Assembly (NCBI RefSeq): GCF_004802635.2
Contig: NZ_CP046052.1
Location: forward strand, 1,364,001-1,428,000
DNA: 64,000 bases
Direction of reading: 5' to 3'
From: Methylocystis heyeri
Lineage (GTDB): Bacteria; Pseudomonadota; Alphaproteobacteria; Rhizobiales; Beijerinckiaceae
In this document: piece after piece, positions 15,434-42,846 of the stretch
How the letters are laid out: each line of letters opens with the position of its first letter
Position numbering within the stretch: position 1 is the first letter of the stretch
Position numbers and translations under genes: made by a program
Notes under the pieces: model-generated
Seen by the model: the letters and a program-made list of their open reading frames with translations, nothing else
Told to the model about the DNA's origin: nothing
The model's database searches: none

Positions 15434-16738
15434 ATGCAGGCAAAACCAAAAGAGTTTTCGCGGCGCCAATTTGGTTCGGCGCTTCTCGGCGCCGGATTGA
15501 CGCCCGCGCTGGCGCCGCAGGCCCATGCAGGGCGCGTTTGCCGGGAGCCGTCGCCGCCTGTTTACCATTCGAACCAGCCTGCTGTTCCACTGGGCGCGAT
15601 CAACCCTCATGTCTCGTGGGGCGTCCATCTCGAAGGCGAGTCGATCTACGACACGAGCGTCGTCGAAGCGGTCAAAATGGAACGGCCCAATATTATCGCC
15701 ATAGGAAGCGGACTGAAATTCGGCAATCTCCATCCCGAATCCATCGCTTTCGAGCGCGAGGCCGATGGGAAAAAGATATCGACATGGACCGAAGCCGACG
15801 ACATCGTGCGCCTCGCATCGCGTCTCGGCGCTTCCGTCCGTGGCGACGCGCTGATCTGGAATGATTGGCTTCCGCCCTGGATCGAAAAGCTCGCGAAAGA
15901 ACGGCCGAAGGGCTGGCGCGATCAGTTGCAGGAAGCGTACGAAAAAAATCTGGAAAGCATTTTTTCCCGCTTCCAGGCGCTCGACCGCCAATATGGCAAG
16001 AGCGTGATGCCGTGGTGCGGCCTCATCAACGAGCCTTTCGCCTATTGGAAGGTCTGGTTCGGCAAGCCCGCCTGGCGGCAGGGAACATGGCTCGAGGCTT
16101 TCGATCCGATGCCGGACGGCGCGCCGGGATACATTCATCAAGCTTTCAACCTTGCGGAAAAATACAGCCGTTCCTCGAAACCGGCGCTTTTCTTCAATGA
16201 AGCCAATTGCGACACAGACAAACACGGTCCAATCCTGCGGGGCGCGATGCTCGCCCTCGTCGACAGCCTGCAAGCTGCGGGACGCAAGATCGACGCCGTC
16301 GGCCTCGAAAGCCACCTGCAGCCGGAGTGGATGAACGATCGCGACAAGCCGGATTGGCGACCCTTCGTCAAATTCCTGAAGGATCTCCAGGCCCGCGGCG
16401 TCGCGGTCTATATCACGGAGCTCGACGTCAATGATTGTGCGCTGGAAGACGCCGCCGCGCGCGACAAGCTCGTCGCGGATTACACACAGTCTTTCGTCTC
16501 GGCCGCGCTCGAGATTCCCGCGGTGACGATGGTCACGAACTGGGATTTCGCCGACAGCCTGTCCTGGTACCGCGACGAAGCTACGCCGGAGTCCACCTTC
16601 CCGGCGCTCGGCCGCTGGCCCGGCTGCGTCGCTAGACCGGCATGCCCAAGGCCGGCCATCTATGATCAGGAGCTTTCGCCCAAAGCCGCCCGCGACGCAT
16701 TGGCTGCCGCCCTCGCGGTCAAAAGCGACCAAAAATGA
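15434..16738 (+). CDS. Glycoside hydrolase family 10 (endo-1,4-beta-xylanase-like), Tat-exported
   Basis: A 434-residue protein. The N-terminus FSRRQFGSALLGAGL looks like a twin-arginine signal, cleaved near QAHA. The body follows the GH10 barrel: RGDALIWNDWLPPWI on an early strand, GLINEPFAYW with the presumed acid/base Glu200, GLESHLQPE, and VYITELDVND with the presumed nucleophile Glu329. Both catalytic Glu are present, so activity on a beta-1,4-linked glycan is plausible. Methanotrophs do not grow on xylan, so the natural target could be an exopolysaccharide or plant debris. No carbohydrate-binding module or transporter lies next to it. The ribosome-binding site is weak. Confidence 0.82.
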   Translation: MQAKPKEFSRRQFGSALLGAGLTPALAPQAHAGRVCREPSPPVYHSNQPAVPLGAINPHVSWGVHLEGESIYDTSVVEAVKMERPNIIAIGSGLKFGNLHPESIAFEREADGKKISTWTEADDIVRLASRLGASVRGDALIWNDWLPPWIEKLAKERPKGWRDQLQEAYEKNLESIFSRFQALDRQYGKSVMPWCGLINEPFAYWKVWFGKPAWRQGTWLEAFDPMPDGAPGYIHQAFNLAEKYSRSSKPALFFNEANCDTDKHGPILRGAMLALVDSLQAAGRKIDAVGLESHLQPEWMNDRDKPDWRPFVKFLKDLQARGVAVYITELDVNDCALEDAAARDKLVADYTQSFVSAALEIPAVTMVTNWDFADSLSWYRDEATPESTFPALGRWPGCVARPACPRPAIYDQELSPKAARDALAAALAVKSDQK

Positions 16739-18234: not shown

Positions 18235-18479
18235 GGCGATGCTCCCAGCGAGACCCCTGTATCGTCTCAGAGTAGCCCGGAACGCGTCGAAAGCAAGCCG
18301 GGCGAGGCGCGCCTCGGCCCCGCGACGGATTTTCGGGACAAGTCCGTGAAAAACAGGGCATTTCTTCCCGCCGGTTAACCGGAAGGCAGAGGAAGGCGGG
18401 TAAATTTGCAGCGTGCACGCCTTCCCATCCATCGGCCGAGCGCCACGCCCGTCCGAGAGGCTATAGATGGAGGACAGGG

Positions 18480-21400
18480 TTGGAGCTCGCGTTAAATCGA
18501 TTTTTGCCGCACGGCCTGTGCTTTGGTTGGGATCCTTCCCTCATATTGCTGCATGTGGCGTCCGATACAGTCATCGTTCTTTCATACTTCGCCATCCCGG
18601 CCCTCATCCTCGCCTACCAGTATAAAAGGCGGAGCGCCGACAACTCCGCCATTATCGTGTTGTTCGCTTCTTTCATCGCGGCCTGCGGCGTCACCCACGC
18701 ACTCAATATCGTCACGATCTGGTATCCGATTTTCCTTTGGTCTGGCGCGGTCAAGGCGATTACGGCCGTCATCTCGCTCGCAACGGCGCTGTACATGGCG
18801 CCCAAACTGCCCGCGCTCCTGGCTTTACCCAGTCTGCCCGAACTGCTGGCGATCAACGACCAGCTCAAAGACGCCAACGCGCGCTACAAGAAAGCCGGCA
18901 AGGAGGCGCAACGGCAGGCGCGCGAGCTGACCTCCGCGCTCGACCGGCTGGAAATGGCCACGAAAGCCGCGGAAATCGGAATTTGGGAATGGGACGTGGC
19001 CGGAGGGACTCTGCTCTGGGACGAGCGCATGTACGAAATGTACGGCGCCACCGAAGAGGAGCGGAAGAGCGGGCTGGCTTATGAATTCTGGCAGTCCCGC
19101 GTCCATCGCGACGATATCGCGATGGTGGAGAGCATGTTGCGGGCGGAGATCGCCGGAACCGGGCGCTTTGATCCGGTTTTTCGCATTATGCCGCCGGACG
19201 GCCGGATCCGCTATATCCAGGCGGCCGCCTTCGTAGAGCGGGACGATAAGGGCGCGGTCCTGCGCGTGGTCGGGAGCAACCGCGACGTCACCGAAAGATA
19301 TGAAACCGAGCAAAGGCTGACGGAAACCTCCAGCCGCCTGAAAACCCTGCTGAACACGGCTAGGGACGGCGTCCACATCCTCGACGAGAACGGCGATCTC
19401 GTGGAATTCAGCCACTCCTTTGCGCAGATGCTGGGCTATACGGACGAGGAAGTCGCCCGGCTGAACGTGACCGACTGGGACGCCGCGTTTCCCCGCGAGC
19501 CCCTGCTGAGAGGCCTGATCGAACTCATGGCTGTCCCGGCGACTTTCGAAACCAGACATCGCCGCAAGGACGGCTCCATTTTCGACGTCGAAATCAACGC
19601 CCAGGGCGTCGAATTCGGAGGGCGCCGCTATCTACACGCTTCGGCCCGCGACATCACCAAGCGCAAGGAGGCCGAAACGGAGCTCCGGGAAAGCCGGGAG
19701 CGCCAGCGCCAGGCCAAAAAACAGGCCGAGACGGCCAATCTGGCCAAGAGTCAGTTTCTCGCCAACATGAGCCACGAAATCCGCACTCCGATGAACGCCG
19801 TGCTGGGTCTGTTGCAGCTGATGGAGCGCACGCCGCTCGACAAGCGGCAGAAGGACTATGTCCAAAAGGCGCAAGTAGCGGCCAATTCGCTGCTCGGGAT
19901 TATCAGGGACATCCTCGATTTCTCCAAGATCGAGGCCGGCAAGATGGAACTGGAGAGCGCGCCGTTCAGCATTCAGAACCTGTTCCATACCCTGTCTGCG
20001 CTGCTTTCGATTCAAGTTCGCGACAAGGACGTCGAGATACTTTTCGACGTCGACGGCGCGGCCCCGATAGATCTGATCGGCGACGCGCTTCGCCTGCAAC
20101 AGATATTGCTGAACCTCACCAGCAACGCGGTCAAGTTCACCTCCGTCGGCGCCATCACCGTCAAGCTGGCGCTCCTCGGCGCCTTCGACAAATCCGTCCG
20201 GCTGGAGTTCAGCGTCAGCGACACGGGCATAGGCATAGCGCCCGACAAGCAGGCGTCGATCTTCGAGGGCTTTACCCAAGCCGAGGCCTCGACCACCCGC
20301 CGCTTCGGCGGCACGGGACTCGGCCTCGCCATCAGCCGAAGGCTGGTGCAGCTGATGGGCGGCGACCTGCAGGTCGAGAGCAAGCTCGGCGAGGGCAGCC
20401 GCTTCTTTTTCACAATCGATCTGCCCGTTGGCGAAGCGCCCGCTTCGGCTCCGCAAACATTGGCCCAGTTGGGTCAGCGGACCCCGGGTCCTCTGTGCGC
20501 GCTGATCGTCGGCGACAACAACGCCGCCCGCAGCGTGCTGGCCAAAATGGCCCGGGACCTCGGCTGGCGGGCGGACACCGCCTCCTGCGGCCTCGAGGTC
20601 ATAGGCGATTTCGAGCGTCGCGGCGCCGACGATCGCCCCTATGACGCCGTGTTCCTGGATTGGAAGACTTTGGACATGGGCGGCTGGGAGCTGGCCCGCC
20701 GCATCCGGGCGGCCCATCCGCCCGCCGATCCCCCGATCTTCGTATTGATCACCGCCTATGGACGCCAGGTGATGCGCCGACACCTCGACGAGGCCGACAG
20801 TCCCTTCGACGGTTTTTTGACCAAACCTCTGACCCATTCGATGCTGGTCGACGCCGTATCCACAGCGTCCGACGGGAAGCTGGTGACGCCCAATCCGGCG
20901 CAATTGCCGGGACCTGACCGCCCTCTCGCGGGTCTGCGGCTGCTGCTGGTGGAAGACAATCCAACCAACCAGCAGGTGGCGCGCGAACTGCTCGAATTGC
21001 AGGGAGCCGAGATTGCGGTCGCCGGCAACGGCGCCGACGGCGTCAGGCTGGCGCAGACCGCCGAGCCTCCCTTCGACGCCGTGCTGATGGACATTCAGAT
21101 GCCGGAGATGGACGGCTTCGAGGCCACGCGCGTCCTGCGCCGGGAATACCGGCGGGCGAGACTGCCTATCCTGGCCATGACCGCCAATGCGCTATCCTCC
21201 GATCGCGAGGCCTGCCTCGCGGCGGGGATGGACGATCACGTCGGCAAACCCCTCGATCTCGGCGAAGTGGTCGCCAAGGTCATGACCTTGTGCGGACGCG
21301 GAAGCGCCGCGCGGGAAAGCTCCTCGGAGCCGGAGCCGGCGAAAGCGGCCTCCTCCGGTTTCGACCTCGCACAGGCCCTGCTCCGCATAGGGAATCGGAC

Positions 21401-21932
21401 CGACGCTTATCTCCGGTTTGCTGCGTCCTTCCGCTACGATCAGGCCGCGATCCGCAAGCGAGCGCGAAGGGCGGCGGATGAAAACGTCAGAGCCGATTTC
21501 GCCCGCGAACTGCATACGCTCAAGGGTCTGGCGGGAACGCTCGGCGCCGTTTCCCTTTCGGCTTCCGTCCAGGCCGCGGAGGATCGGGTGAAGACGGGTT
21601 CGCCGCTCGGCGAAGTGATGGGCGAACTCGACGCCGAAATCGAAAAGGCTCTCGTCGAACTCGACCAGATCACCGCTGATCTGGAGCTTCCGACCCCGGC
21701 AGTCGCGGCGCTCGACGCTCCCGCCCTCCTCGCCCGTCTCGACGAGCTCGAGCCCTTGTTGGCGGCGGGCAATCTGCGCATGCTCAGCGTCCTCGCCGAA
21801 CTCAAACGAGAACAGGGCGCCGCTTTGGGCGACGCCCTGGACAGCCTCGAAAGCGCCGTGGCCGAGATGAATCTCGAAGCCGCATCCAGAGCCTGCGCAG
21901 CCTTGCGCAAAATAATCGGGGAAGAGGCATGA
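18480..21932 (+). CDS. Hybrid histidine kinase with ethylene-receptor-type (ETR1-like) copper-binding membrane domain
   Basis: An 1150-residue sensor. TTG 18480 is the start, preceded by GGAGGA. Residues 25-115 form three membrane helices. The residues D29, Y36, I39, P40, I66, C69 and H73 match plant ETR1 D25, Y32, I35, P36, I62, C65 and H69 with a constant offset of four, so this is a strong candidate Cu(I)/ethylene-binding domain. After a coiled coil come two PAS domains (about 155-275 and 285-395), HisKA with H432 (NMSHEIRTPMN), HATPase (NLTSNAVKFT, DTGIGIAPD, GTGLGLAIS), a first REC with D727 but an unusual acidic pocket, a second canonical REC with D871, and an Hpt domain with H1012. It overlaps the GGDEF gene by four bases, implying an output to c-di-GMP. 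Ligand identity is inferred from the motif only. Confidence 0.93.
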   Translation: MELALNRFLPHGLCFGWDPSLILLHVASDTVIVLSYFAIPALILAYQYKRRSADNSAIIVLFASFIAACGVTHALNIVTIWYPIFLWSGAVKAITAVISLATALYMAPKLPALLALPSLPELLAINDQLKDANARYKKAGKEAQRQARELTSALDRLEMATKAAEIGIWEWDVAGGTLLWDERMYEMYGATEEERKSGLAYEFWQSRVHRDDIAMVESMLRAEIAGTGRFDPVFRIMPPDGRIRYIQAAAFVERDDKGAVLRVVGSNRDVTERYETEQRLTETSSRLKTLLNTARDGVHILDENGDLVEFSHSFAQMLGYTDEEVARLNVTDWDAAFPREPLLRGLIELMAVPATFETRHRRKDGSIFDVEINAQGVEFGGRRYLHASARDITKRKEAETELRESRERQRQAKKQAETANLAKSQFLANMSHEIRTPMNAVLGLLQLMERTPLDKRQKDYVQKAQVAANSLLGIIRDILDFSKIEAGKMELESAPFSIQNLFHTLSALLSIQVRDKDVEILFDVDGAAPIDLIGDALRLQQILLNLTSNAVKFTSVGAITVKLALLGAFDKSVRLEFSVSDTGIGIAPDKQASIFEGFTQAEASTTRRFGGTGLGLAISRRLVQLMGGDLQVESKLGEGSRFFFTIDLPVGEAPASAPQTLAQLGQRTPGPLCALIVGDNNAARSVLAKMARDLGWRADTASCGLEVIGDFERRGADDRPYDAVFLDWKTLDMGGWELARRIRAAHPPADPPIFVLITAYGRQVMRRHLDEADSPFDGFLTKPLTHSMLVDAVSTASDGKLVTPNPAQLPGPDRPLAGLRLLLVEDNPTNQQVARELLELQGAEIAVAGNGADGVRLAQTAEPPFDAVLMDIQMPEMDGFEATRVLRREYRRARLPILAMTANALSSDREACLAAGMDDHVGKPLDLGEVVAKVMTLCGRGSAARESSSEPEPAKAASSGFDLAQALLRIGNRTDAYLRFAASFRYDQAAIRKRARRAADENVRADFARELHTLKGLAGTLGAVSLSASVQAAEDRVKTGSPLGEVMGELDAEIEKALVELDQITADLELPTPAVAALDAPALLARLDELEPLLAAGNLRMLSVLAELKREQGAALGDALDSLESAVAEMNLEAASRACAALRKIIGEEA

Positions 21933-22864
21933 ACGCGCCCCCGTTTCCGACCAAGACGCCTCGAATCCTGATCGTCGACGACCAGCCGATCAACATCCAG
22001 CTTATGTACGACGCGATCCGGGAGCTCGGCGAAGTCTTTTTCGCCACCAGCGGCGAACAGGCGCTGGCTTTCTGCGCCAAGACCCCGCCGGATCTCGTGC
22101 TGCTGGACGTGGAAATGCCCGGCATGGACGGCTACGAGGTATGCCGGCGCCTAAAGGAAGTTCCGGAACTCGCCCAGATTCCGGTCATTTTCGTGACCGC
22201 CCGCGGCGGCGTCGAGGACGAGGTGCGGGCACTGGAAGCCGGCGGCGTGGATTTCATCACCAAGCCGGTGAATCTCGCCGTCGCGCGCGCGAGGGTGAAA
22301 ACCCATCTGGCGCTGAAAGCGCAAAGCGACTTCCTGCGCAATCTGGCGTCGATGGACGGGTTGACGGGGATCGCCAACCGTCGCCAGTTCGACCGTCTGA
22401 TGCCCCTGGAATGGCGCTACTGCCAGCGCCACAATTTTTCCCTCGGCGTGTTGATGATCGATGTCGATCACTTCAAACTCTACAATGATCGCCTCGGTCA
22501 CCAGAGCGGCGACGCCTGCCTGCAAAGCGTCGCCGCCACCATCACCAAGCATCTTCGCCGGCCTCACGATTTAGCCGCGCGCTACGGCGGCGAGGAATTC
22601 ATCTGCCTGATGCCCGAAACCGATTCCGATGGAGCCGAAGCCAGAGCCGAGGAAATCCGCGCCGCGGTGGAGCGTCTCGGCCTGCCTCATCCCGCTTCGG
22701 AGACCGCGCCCGTCGTCACGGTCAGCGTGGGCGCCGCCAGCGCGAGTCCGGGCGAGGATGTTTCGTGTACTGATCTGACTTTGCGCGCCGATCAGGCGCT
22801 CTACGCGGCAAAAGCGGCGGGGAGAAACCAGGTGTGCCTCGCCGAAAGGAATCGGCTGGAATAA
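21929..22864 (+). CDS. Response regulator with REC and GGDEF domains (diguanylate cyclase)
   Basis: A 311-residue PleD/WspR-like protein. The REC domain (ILIVDDQPINIQLM, LLDVEMPGMDG, Lys in FITKPVN) occupies residues about 12-130. The GGDEF domain has an intact active site GGEEF (220-224) and an inhibitory RxxD site (RPHD) exactly five residues before it, so it should make c-di-GMP with product feedback. It overlaps the hybrid kinase by ATGA, so the two are translationally coupled and the kinase Hpt is the likely phosphodonor. Confidence 0.94.
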   Translation: MNAPPFPTKTPRILIVDDQPINIQLMYDAIRELGEVFFATSGEQALAFCAKTPPDLVLLDVEMPGMDGYEVCRRLKEVPELAQIPVIFVTARGGVEDEVRALEAGGVDFITKPVNLAVARARVKTHLALKAQSDFLRNLASMDGLTGIANRRQFDRLMPLEWRYCQRHNFSLGVLMIDVDHFKLYNDRLGHQSGDACLQSVAATITKHLRRPHDLAARYGGEEFICLMPETDSDGAEARAEEIRAAVERLGLPHPASETAPVVTVSVGAASASPGEDVSCTDLTLRADQALYAAKAAGRNQVCLAERNRLE

Positions 22865-22900
22865 TCCCGCGCGGGTCGGAGCGGGCGCATCGCCTTTCGC

Positions 22901-24127
22901 TCAGGCCTGCGTCAACCCTTTCATCGGCGCGATCGACGCGGATTCGGGAAAGACCTTTTCAGCCAGAGCCTGCGCGGAAAGGCCGAACTGATCGGCGAGC
23001 ATGCCCTTGAGCACGGCGCGTAAATCCATGGTCGGCGCAAGGTCGCGGCCCTGATAAAGCTGGTTTGCCTTGAGCCCCGGCCAATTGGCGATCACGCGGC
23101 CGCCGGCCACCGCCCCGCCCGCCAGCAAGGCGACTGTTCCGGTTCCATGATCGGTGCCGTTGGTTCCGTTGATCCGCGCGGTGCGGCCGAATTCCGTAAT
23201 GGCGAGGACGATGGTGTCCTTCCAGCCTTCGCCAAGCCCTTTCTCAAGCTCTTCAAAGGCGCCGTCGAGGCCCGAAAGCCGGGTCGCGAGTTGTCCCGTG
23301 ACGCCGCCTTCGTTCTGATGCGTGTCCCAGCCATCGAAAGCGAGCGCGGCGACGCGCGGCCCTTCCGGCGCCGCCAGCAGGCGCGCCGCGCCGGCCGAGG
23401 CCTGTCTCATGCCGCCGGGCTGATCCATGCCGCCCTTGTTCTTTCTGGCGTCGTCGCTCATGCCGCCCTGGGTCGCCACGCGCTCGGTGTCGAGGCCGGA
23501 CTCGAGAGCGGCGGCGAGCGCAGGATCGCGGTGTCGGTAGAGATCGAGCGTACGCATGGCGAGACTGTCGCCGGCGCTGGGAAGGCCTTGCGGCGCCCAG
23601 CCCAACACCGGCGCCGGGCCGCGCATGACAAGGGGAGCGGTGACGCCGACGCCGAGCCCCCGCCGCGCGGAGCCTCCACTCGAAGGCAGCACCGCCACGG
23701 CGCGGTTGAGCCAGCCGCTTTCGGTGCGGCCCGGACCCGGAAAGCCGCTTTCCAGAACGTCCTGGCCGTCGAAATGCGAGCGCTCGCGGTAGCTGGTCGC
23801 GACGGCGTGAACCACCGCCCCGCGCTTCTCGCGATAAAGCCGCGCGAACGCCGGCATGGCCGGATGCAGGGCGAAGAATCCGTCGAGCGGGAGGCCGGCG
23901 CGCTCGCCGGTAGGCGCAAGCGCCAAAGCCCCATGCAGAGGCGCGTAATCGGGATCGCCGACCGGAGCCACGGCGGCGAGCCCGTCCAATGCGCCGCGCA
24001 AGATGATCACGACGACGCGCGGATCGCGGGCGCCGGCGGCGCTGAGCGGCCGCGGAGCGAAAGCGGCGGCGCAGGCGACGCTCATGCCCTGCAGCGCGCG
24101 GCGGCGCGAGAAGACGCGAGAATTCAT
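22901..24127 (-). CDS. DUF1501 family Tat-exported protein
   Basis: A 408-residue protein with a Tat-like signal (SRRRALQGMSVACAAAFA). The DUF1501 fold is indicated by RVVVIILRGALDGLAAVAPVGDPDY near the start, the central HFDGQDVLESG, and ITEFGRTARINGTNGTDHGTG near the C-terminus, a pattern reminiscent of the alkaline phosphatase/sulfatase superfamily. Biochemical role is unknown. ATG 24127 is preferred because AGAGGAG lies about seven bases upstream; ATG 24133 overlaps the upstream stop. It is translated together with the DUF1800 gene. Confidence 0.85.
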   Translation of the reverse strand: MNSRVFSRRRALQGMSVACAAAFAPRPLSAAGARDPRVVVIILRGALDGLAAVAPVGDPDYAPLHGALALAPTGERAGLPLDGFFALHPAMPAFARLYREKRGAVVHAVATSYRERSHFDGQDVLESGFPGPGRTESGWLNRAVAVLPSSGGSARRGLGVGVTAPLVMRGPAPVLGWAPQGLPSAGDSLAMRTLDLYRHRDPALAAALESGLDTERVATQGGMSDDARKNKGGMDQPGGMRQASAGAARLLAAPEGPRVAALAFDGWDTHQNEGGVTGQLATRLSGLDGAFEELEKGLGEGWKDTIVLAITEFGRTARINGTNGTDHGTGTVALLAGGAVAGGRVIANWPGLKANQLYQGRDLAPTMDLRAVLKGMLADQFGLSAQALAEKVFPESASIAPMKGLTQA

Positions 24128-42087: not shown

Positions 42088-42846
42088 TTAGATCTTCTCG
42101 ATCTTGGCGGTCGTCGAATACCAGCGGCCCATGAACCACCACAGGAAGTAGACCATCATCGAGACGAAGCCCGAGAAGAAGGCCGCAACCGGAACGACGT
42201 CCTTACCGAAGGTGCGCAGCGTGCCGCGCTCGACCATGCGGATGTATTCCGGCATCGAGGTGCGCACGAAGTGGAAGCCGATCAGATCCGCGAGGGTCAT
42301 CAGCTGGCCGTGCTGCTCGGTGGCCTGGTGGAACGCCGCAATCGCCGGCCAGTTGTTCGGGTAGAACAGCAGGCCCCAGCCCAGCGAGCCCACGATCGCC
42401 GTGATCACGTAGCTGCCCGAGAGGAGCAGGATCACGTCGAGCCAGATCGCCGGAACCATCAGAGCGGACGGGAACACCAGGGAGATCGGGAAGTAGGTCC
42501 AGCCCCAGAAGTTCACGTAGCGGTTGATCCACTCGCCGATCAGAAGGCCCAGAACCGCGAAGGTCGCGCCGAACGGAAGGCGGAAGTTCACCCAGAAGAA
42601 CGCCTGAGAAGCGGCCGCGAAGGTCACGCCCAGGATCGGAACCACGGTCGGCCACATACGACGGTCTTTCCAGTCGACCCAGAAGTCCCAGTCGCCCGCC
42701 GTCAGCATGAAGTGGACGTGGTAGCCGCCGAGAACGGCGAAAAACAGCAGTGTCAGAAGCAACCAGTCGGTGGTTTGAACGCATCCCGCCGCTTCGGCGA
42801 CGGAATGGAACGGTCCGACCGCCCCCCCGCTCTTCGATGTCGACAT
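42088..42846 (-). CDS. pmoA: Particulate methane monooxygenase subunit A
   Basis: A 252-residue integral membrane subunit, the usual phylogenetic marker of methanotrophs. Stretches such as GDWDFWVDWKDRRMWPTVVP, NFRLPFGATF and NFWGWTYFPISLVFP are essentially as in Methylosinus and Methylocystis pMMO1. There are about seven membrane helices. AAGGAG precedes the ATG at 42846. It lies 238 bases after pmoC and 182 bases before pmoB, both spacers without genes. With PmoB and PmoC it oxidises methane to methanol at intracytoplasmic membranes. Confidence 0.98.
   Translation of the reverse strand: MSTSKSGGAVGPFHSVAEAAGCVQTTDWLLLTLLFFAVLGGYHVHFMLTAGDWDFWVDWKDRRMWPTVVPILGVTFAAASQAFFWVNFRLPFGATFAVLGLLIGEWINRYVNFWGWTYFPISLVFPSALMVPAIWLDVILLLSGSYVITAIVGSLGWGLLFYPNNWPAIAAFHQATEQHGQLMTLADLIGFHFVRTSMPEYIRMVERGTLRTFGKDVVPVAAFFSGFVSMMVYFLWWFMGRWYSTTAKIEKI

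Follow-up and report, generated by a model that had tools for sequence, protein, structure and literature searches.

The window analysed here, a stretch of 64,000 nucleotides from contig NZ_CP046052.1 of Methylocystis heyeri, encodes a hybrid histidine kinase whose membrane part resembles that of the plant ethylene receptor ETR1 and whose gene runs into that of a diguanylate cyclase. The first-pass annotation of this DNA suggested that the pair could be a copper or ethylene sensor controlling c-di-GMP and attachment in a methanotroph. The locus thus raises the questions of what the membrane domain senses and whether the adjoining cyclase receives its signal. As set out below, domain content, conserved residues and gene neighbourhood point to a two-gene system that is probably responsive to ethylene and would steer c-di-GMP by direct phosphorelay.

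The ETR1_N domain and the kinase that carries it

The kinase gene (18480..21932, + strand) is an intact open reading frame for 1150 amino acids that begins with TTG, 6 nt downstream of a GGAGG ribosome-binding site read from the sequence (18469..18473, +), and the metagenomic homologue P0002 shares this N-terminus. Pfam profiles yield the domain order ETR1_N-PAS-PAS-HisKA-HATPase-REC-REC-Hpt, and the arrangement of PAS, kinase, two receiver and Hpt domains claimed earlier is thereby borne out (PAS_3, PAS, HisKA, HATPase_c, two Response_reg, Hpt). All on the + strand, the two PAS domains occupy 19014..19661 (PAS_3, residues 179-266; PAS, 286-387, with a PAS_9 region to 394), HisKA and HATPase_c 19743..20426 (residues 422-487 and 534-649), REC1 with its phospho-Asp position D727 20547..20909 (approximate limits, residues 690-810), REC2 20943..21281 and Hpt 21429..21647 (residues 984-1056). 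H432 of HisKA (19773-19775, +), the phospho-acceptor D871 of REC2 and H1012 of Hpt do not vary among the 32 aligned kinases of the cassette type described in the next section, and the acceptor column of REC1 holds Asp in 28, Glu in one and a gap in three of them. The REC1 site of the near homologue P0003 is Glu, which fits a pseudo-receiver, and REC1 of the M. heyeri kinase is perhaps one too.

The ETR1_N profile (PF25487) matches residues 21-116 (18540..18827, +) with an E-value of 1.3e-26 and 93.2 bits compared with a curated cut-off of 27, so that the match is not due to chance. In the profile alignment, residues D25, Y32, I35, P36, I62, C65 and H69 of ETR1 fall on D29, Y36, I39, P40, I66, C69 and H73 of the M. 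heyeri kinase, seven of seven at the constant offset of four that had been proposed, and K91 of ETR1 aligns with K92 (18753..18755, +). The ETR1 letters in this alignment are those we take to be correct; their numbers agree with the literature, that of Y32 being presumed. An AlphaFold2 model of the membrane domain (34 sequences, mean pLDDT 89.3) consists of three helices, the first of which (19-49) bears D29 (18564..18566, +), Y36, I39 and P40, the second (56-81) I66 as well as the segment from C69 to H73 (18684..18698, +; equivalents of the ETR1 copper ligands C65 and H69) and the third (85-115) K92. The first-pass annotation would have been refuted if D29, C69 and H73 had lain off the equivalent helix positions; the model gives no such refutation, Asp being on helix 1 and Cys and His on helix 2. 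Profile match, residues and helix positions together support the view that the site is of the ethylene-receptor type, and on all features examined (domain, residues, helices and kinase part) the protein belongs to the ETR1_N receptors.

All seven site residues are present in 105 of the 137 aligned ETR1_N rows and in 49 of the 59 loci that had been chosen without a sequence pattern (15/16 plus 34/43). The near homologues P0002 and P0003 each retain these seven together with an eighth, the equivalent of K91. In the three pairs formed by these two proteins and the M. heyeri kinase, the membrane domain is 79-84% identical vs. 92-95% for HisKA.

The cyclase and a recurring kinase-cyclase cassette

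The start of the cyclase gene (21929..22864, +) lies within the kinase stop (ATGA), which confirms the coupling of the two genes noted before. Its product, one of 20 GGDEF matches in the M. heyeri genome, is composed of Response_reg and GGDEF domains according to Pfam and possesses a phospho-acceptor (D60), an I-site RPHD (211-214) and the motif GGEEF (220-224). As judged from the two protein sequences, the relay residues H432, D871, H1012 and D60 are all intact.

Among the matches listed, kinase and cyclase each have only two close homologues, all of them separate protein entries: P0002 and P0003 for the kinase (88% and 82-83% identity, followed by a steep drop), P0013 and P0014 for the cyclase (87% and 86%, followed by values of at most 65%). 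A search with kinase residues 150-1150 gave, beyond P0002 and P0003 and within the best 120 matches listed, hybrid kinases that lack ETR1_N and share no more than 53% identity. Those with names come mainly from beta- and gammaproteobacteria and from Magnetofaba, and a small number from elsewhere, e.g., Desulfogranum. Cyclase relatives past the top two, among the matches listed, belong to similar taxonomic groups. Because at least ten contigs were apparently common to both lists, a linked pair was suspected and the regions upstream of cyclase relatives were surveyed. A sample of 398 Pseudomonadota genomes contained 55 with a cyclase match at E 1e-80, M. heyeri included, only one other of these being from the same class. 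Forty relatives, mostly top matches, were picked by hand from more than 100 places listed, and in 31 of these 40 the same strand encodes a hybrid kinase no more than 300 bp upstream. The nine others, including L233, where the contig ends at this point, and L243, where it ends 2.1 kb upstream, count against the explanation favoured here.

Together with that of M. heyeri, the surveyed genes gave 32 cassette kinases, all of which contain HisKA, HATPase_c and Response_reg and 30 of which contain Hpt according to Pfam. Their sensors are diverse, with CHASE in twelve, Diguanyl_cycl_sensor in four, dCache_3 in three, CHASE2 in two and MASE1, dCache_1 and a bacterial sensor domain in one each; ETR1_N occurs in the M. 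heyeri kinase alone. By layout and residues, the M. heyeri proteins belong to this kinase-Hpt/REC-GGDEF kind, and as the cassette recurs with varied sensors, the pair can be regarded as the ETR1_N version of an existing cassette. The c-di-GMP output put forward earlier thereby gains support beyond what the sequence of the locus by itself had offered, given the recurrence of such pairs.

The two genes also share their absence. Genome G130, that of a close relative, has a superoxide dismutase (SOD) 96% identical to that of M. heyeri and the same flanks but lacks kinase and cyclase. At this locus (L200), about 20 bp separate the end of a DUF1501 remnant (5108) from the start of the match to SRPBCC residues 46-245 (5128), while DNA alignment yields a gap of about 70 bp facing 18248 to 22912 of the window. 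The segment missing from G130 measures about 4.6 kb and comprises both genes and little else, the DUF1501/DUF1800 flank of G130 being itself partly deleted. The pair was not seen in any other genome of the genus. SOD, SRPBCC and DUF1501 occur together in none of the six other genomes whose flanks were fetched or partly matched, so that the comparison of presence and absence rests on G130; by this comparison, kinase and cyclase are present or absent as one unit.

Distribution of ETR1_N and competing readings

At E 0.001 or better, ETR1_N matches were found in 14 of 39 genomes at the level of the genus, in 19 of 119 at that of the family and in 64 of 397 at that of the order (55 of the last above the cut-off), each count including the M. 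heyeri genome itself. M. heyeri encodes two further ETR1_N proteins, a 598-aa kinase-REC protein and one of 204 aa without kinase. In the other genomes of the genus, 13 of the 14 loci encode ETR1_N-kinase-REC proteins of 524-690 aa, and the remaining one, L143, encodes a 370-aa ETR1_N protein with an adjoining REC gene. The M. heyeri layout is absent from all 60 loci fetched from genus, family and order; it was seen in M. heyeri only, and the novelty lies in the attachment of ETR1_N to the kinase-cyclase cassette. A scan of named organisms provided 71 ETR1_N loci ranging from cyanobacteria to Acidobacteria and including Methylobacter luteus, a gammaproteobacterial methanotroph; since the patterns used to find these loci contain site residues, the residue counts for this set are biased. 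A tree of ETR1_N domains (132 of the 137 rows, divergent or fragmentary ones having been removed beforehand) places the M. heyeri domain weakly, on few columns, near Limnobacter and a gammaproteobacterial MAG. Grouping it with receptors of its own genus was not rejected (AU test, p 0.311), so that the tree does not settle the origin of the domain, a point counted against the best explanation.

The methanotroph setting emphasized in the first-pass annotation stands in part. A search confined to the M. heyeri genome revealed three pmoA-family genes (PF02461), which identify the host as a methanotroph as had been stated, one of them within the window (42103-42804, - strand), about 19 kb away. The tie of the receptor to this way of life is loose, in view of the spread of ETR1_N through genus and order. 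Pfam analysis of seven nearby genes identified SRPBCC, Fe/Mn SOD, GH10, DUF1501, DUF1800 and endo/exonuclease-phosphatase proteins and one without a match, and thus none for copper efflux, storage or a chaperone; on this neighbourhood the copper sensor was rejected as first choice.

That the membrane domain keeps its Cu(I) site and gauges copper status, linking copper supply to c-di-GMP, would agree with the intact ligands C69 and H73 and with a host that has three pmoA-family genes. For ETR1, however, the KD of the Cu(I) cofactor is reported to be 1.3e-15 M (PMC6586836), an affinity more in keeping with a cofactor than with a gauge. Also the distance of the pmoA gene and the seven neighbours speak against such a role, and the retained equivalents of Y32, I35, P36 and I62 are residues listed for ethylene binding and not as copper ligands. 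The copper sensor put forward earlier is thus not supported and seems improbable; copper as a tightly held cofactor rather than a signal would be the best reading. It is likewise unlikely, if less easily dismissed, that sensing falls to the PAS domains, in response to redox, oxygen or light, and that ETR1_N merely anchors the protein in the membrane, perhaps as a relic. Two PAS domains do lie between membrane part and kinase, and PAS occurs in 20 of the 32 cassette kinases, at least seven of the 32 being without any other recognised sensor domain. Yet the three homologues retain all eight site residues despite differences at 16-21% of positions between their membrane domains, and a mere anchor would have no need of a buried Cys-His-Asp set.

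A further reading accepts ethylene as the stimulus and denies that the adjoining cyclase is the partner of the receptor. The recognised partner is a REC domain in 30 of 57 ETR1_N genes of genus, family and order (fused in 23, adjacent in 7), and no cyclase follows any of the 55 other such genes with enough flanking sequence, a result that we count against the path from ethylene to c-di-GMP. The M. heyeri genes nevertheless overlap by ATGA, are missing together from G130, have matching profiles of close homologues among the matches listed and represent a cassette that recurs in 31 of 40 cases, which makes an unconnected cyclase very improbable. In the named set, GGDEF accompanies 11 of 65 receptor genes, fused in two and downstream on the same strand in nine, the other six of the 71 having less than 1.5 kb downstream. 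The corresponding control was 2/14 for the other kinases of the same loci, both scored via a GGDEF gene that had also been counted for the ETR1_N gene of that locus, and no enrichment of ETR1_N genes beside cyclases is claimed.

A predicted phosphorelay and its counterparts

For the preferred reading, an ethylene-responsive kinase acting on its cyclase, the following course can be proposed. The three-helix N-terminus would dimerise in the inner membrane, hold Cu(I) at C69/H73 and bind ethylene there, and by analogy with homologues ethylene would lower kinase activity. From the architecture and from the Anabaena CdgK/CdgS pair discussed below, phosphate is predicted to pass from H432 to D871 of REC2, on to H1012 of Hpt and finally to D60 of the cyclase, whose activity would then rise. 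Without ethylene, kinase and cyclase would be on, c-di-GMP would be made and the cell would be attached; with ethylene, both would be off, c-di-GMP would be lower and the cell may detach, input, sign and attachment being the parts that we infer. More tentatively, the locus may be a one-operon line from ethylene to c-di-GMP in which ETR1_N has replaced the usual sensor of the cassette and a gas sets attachment in a methanotroph. Ethylene is a gas of plant roots and flooded soils, and pMMO converts it to toxic epoxyethane. A warning of this gas or a cue for nearby roots could be a reason for keeping such a receptor.

With regard to layout, a close counterpart is CdgK/CdgS of Anabaena PCC 7120, which shares HisKA-HATPase-REC-REC-Hpt and a downstream REC-GGDEF protein with D60. 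The two genes are described as co-transcribed, the relay as running from the kinase His via Asp of REC2 and His of Hpt to D60 of the cyclase, with a rise in activity, and REC1 of CdgK as dispensable (PMC9927289). CdgK differs in its sensor, which is made up of CHASE, several PAS and GAF domains and for which the signal is given as unknown (PMC9927289). With regard to the sensor, AzoEtr1 of the soil alphaproteobacterium Azospirillum brasilense, reported to bind ethylene (PMC11819568), is comparable. Its length and residue numbers (525 aa, D35, C75, H79, K98) identify it with the gene of strain Sp7 in our locus L208. Like the M. heyeri protein, it has ETR1_N with the same eight residues and its gene overlaps a downstream response-regulator gene; in contrast, it has 525 residues, a single PAS and neither REC nor Hpt, and its response regulator, 135 aa in length, has no other recognised output. 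Bacterial ethylene receptors are thus established, and the ETR1_N domain as such is no novelty.

SynEtr1 of Synechocystis and plant ETR1 resemble the M. heyeri kinase in the membrane domain and its ethylene-binding residues. SynEtr1 differs in being a light sensor as well and in signalling to slr1213 (PMC11819568), and ETR1 in its GAF, kinase and REC domains (PMC6586836) and in signalling that is mostly independent of its own kinase activity (PMC11819568). GeiEtr2 of Geitlerinema is comparable by neighbourhood, being a putative ethylene receptor with a gene for a diguanylate cyclase domain nearby, but its host is a cyanobacterium (PMC6682694). With GeiEtr2 and the eleven of 65 genes of the named set, the M. 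heyeri kinase is not the first ethylene receptor with a cyclase nearby. Titles and abstract openings in the open-licence literature yielded no paper on ethylene receptors of methanotrophs, and a sensory ethylene response in these organisms would pose a new question in methane ecology.

The physiological response itself has precedents of either sign. In A. brasilense, c-di-GMP and biofilm are reported to fall after ethylene, and the authors predict lower kinase activity of AzoEtr1 in its presence; in Synechocystis, the opposite is described, biofilm formation rising with ethylene (PMC11819568). For Azospirillum, the same report states that the route from receptor to c-di-GMP and biofilm is unknown (PMC11819568). 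In M. heyeri, the genes for receptor and cyclase form an apparent operon and their products have every relay residue in place, so that here the route could be tested with two purified proteins.

Further ETR1_N genes in the Methylocystis heyeri genome

Apart from the hybrid kinase, the genome encodes two proteins with the ethylene-receptor membrane domain ETR1_N. One of them, located on the forward strand at about 1.87 Mb of contig C1 (locus L002, 1213-3009), comprises 598 aa with a fused REC domain and belongs to a type that is common in the genus. As this is the third ETR1_N gene of the genome, the methanotroph may possess three receptor-like proteins. The other, a protein of 204 aa encoded on the reverse strand at about 2.79 Mb of the same contig (L001, 1429-2043), lacks a kinase and consists of ETR1_N with an additional hydrophobic stretch at the N-terminus; in the alignment, serine occupies the position of ETR1 P36. 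Comparable short stand-alone forms are present in Chelativorans (L137, 215 aa) and at locus L171 (202 aa).

Genes near the pair and the empty site

The methanotroph genome carries a xylanase-type glycosyl hydrolase family 10 gene (window 15434-16738, Pfam), which is retained in G130, the close relative lacking the kinase-cyclase pair. In the DUF1501 gene adjoining the empty site of G130 (L200, 4860-5108), only residues 410-492 of 494 are matched, and a search of 10 kb at this locus gave no match to DUF1800.

ETR1_N proteins in other organisms

An ETR1_N-kinase-REC gene of Methylobacter luteus (L084, 6968-9049) encodes all eight site residues. GGDEF genes directly follow ETR1_N hybrid kinase genes in Hyella (L088), Acaryochloris (L115) and a deltaproteobacterial metagenome-assembled genome (L097). 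ETR1_N and GGDEF are united in single proteins of Oceanococcus (L120, 6965-8629) and Microcoleus vaginatus (L109, 6917-10522), and these fusions represent the same receptor-cyclase coupling as the window pair, realized within one protein.
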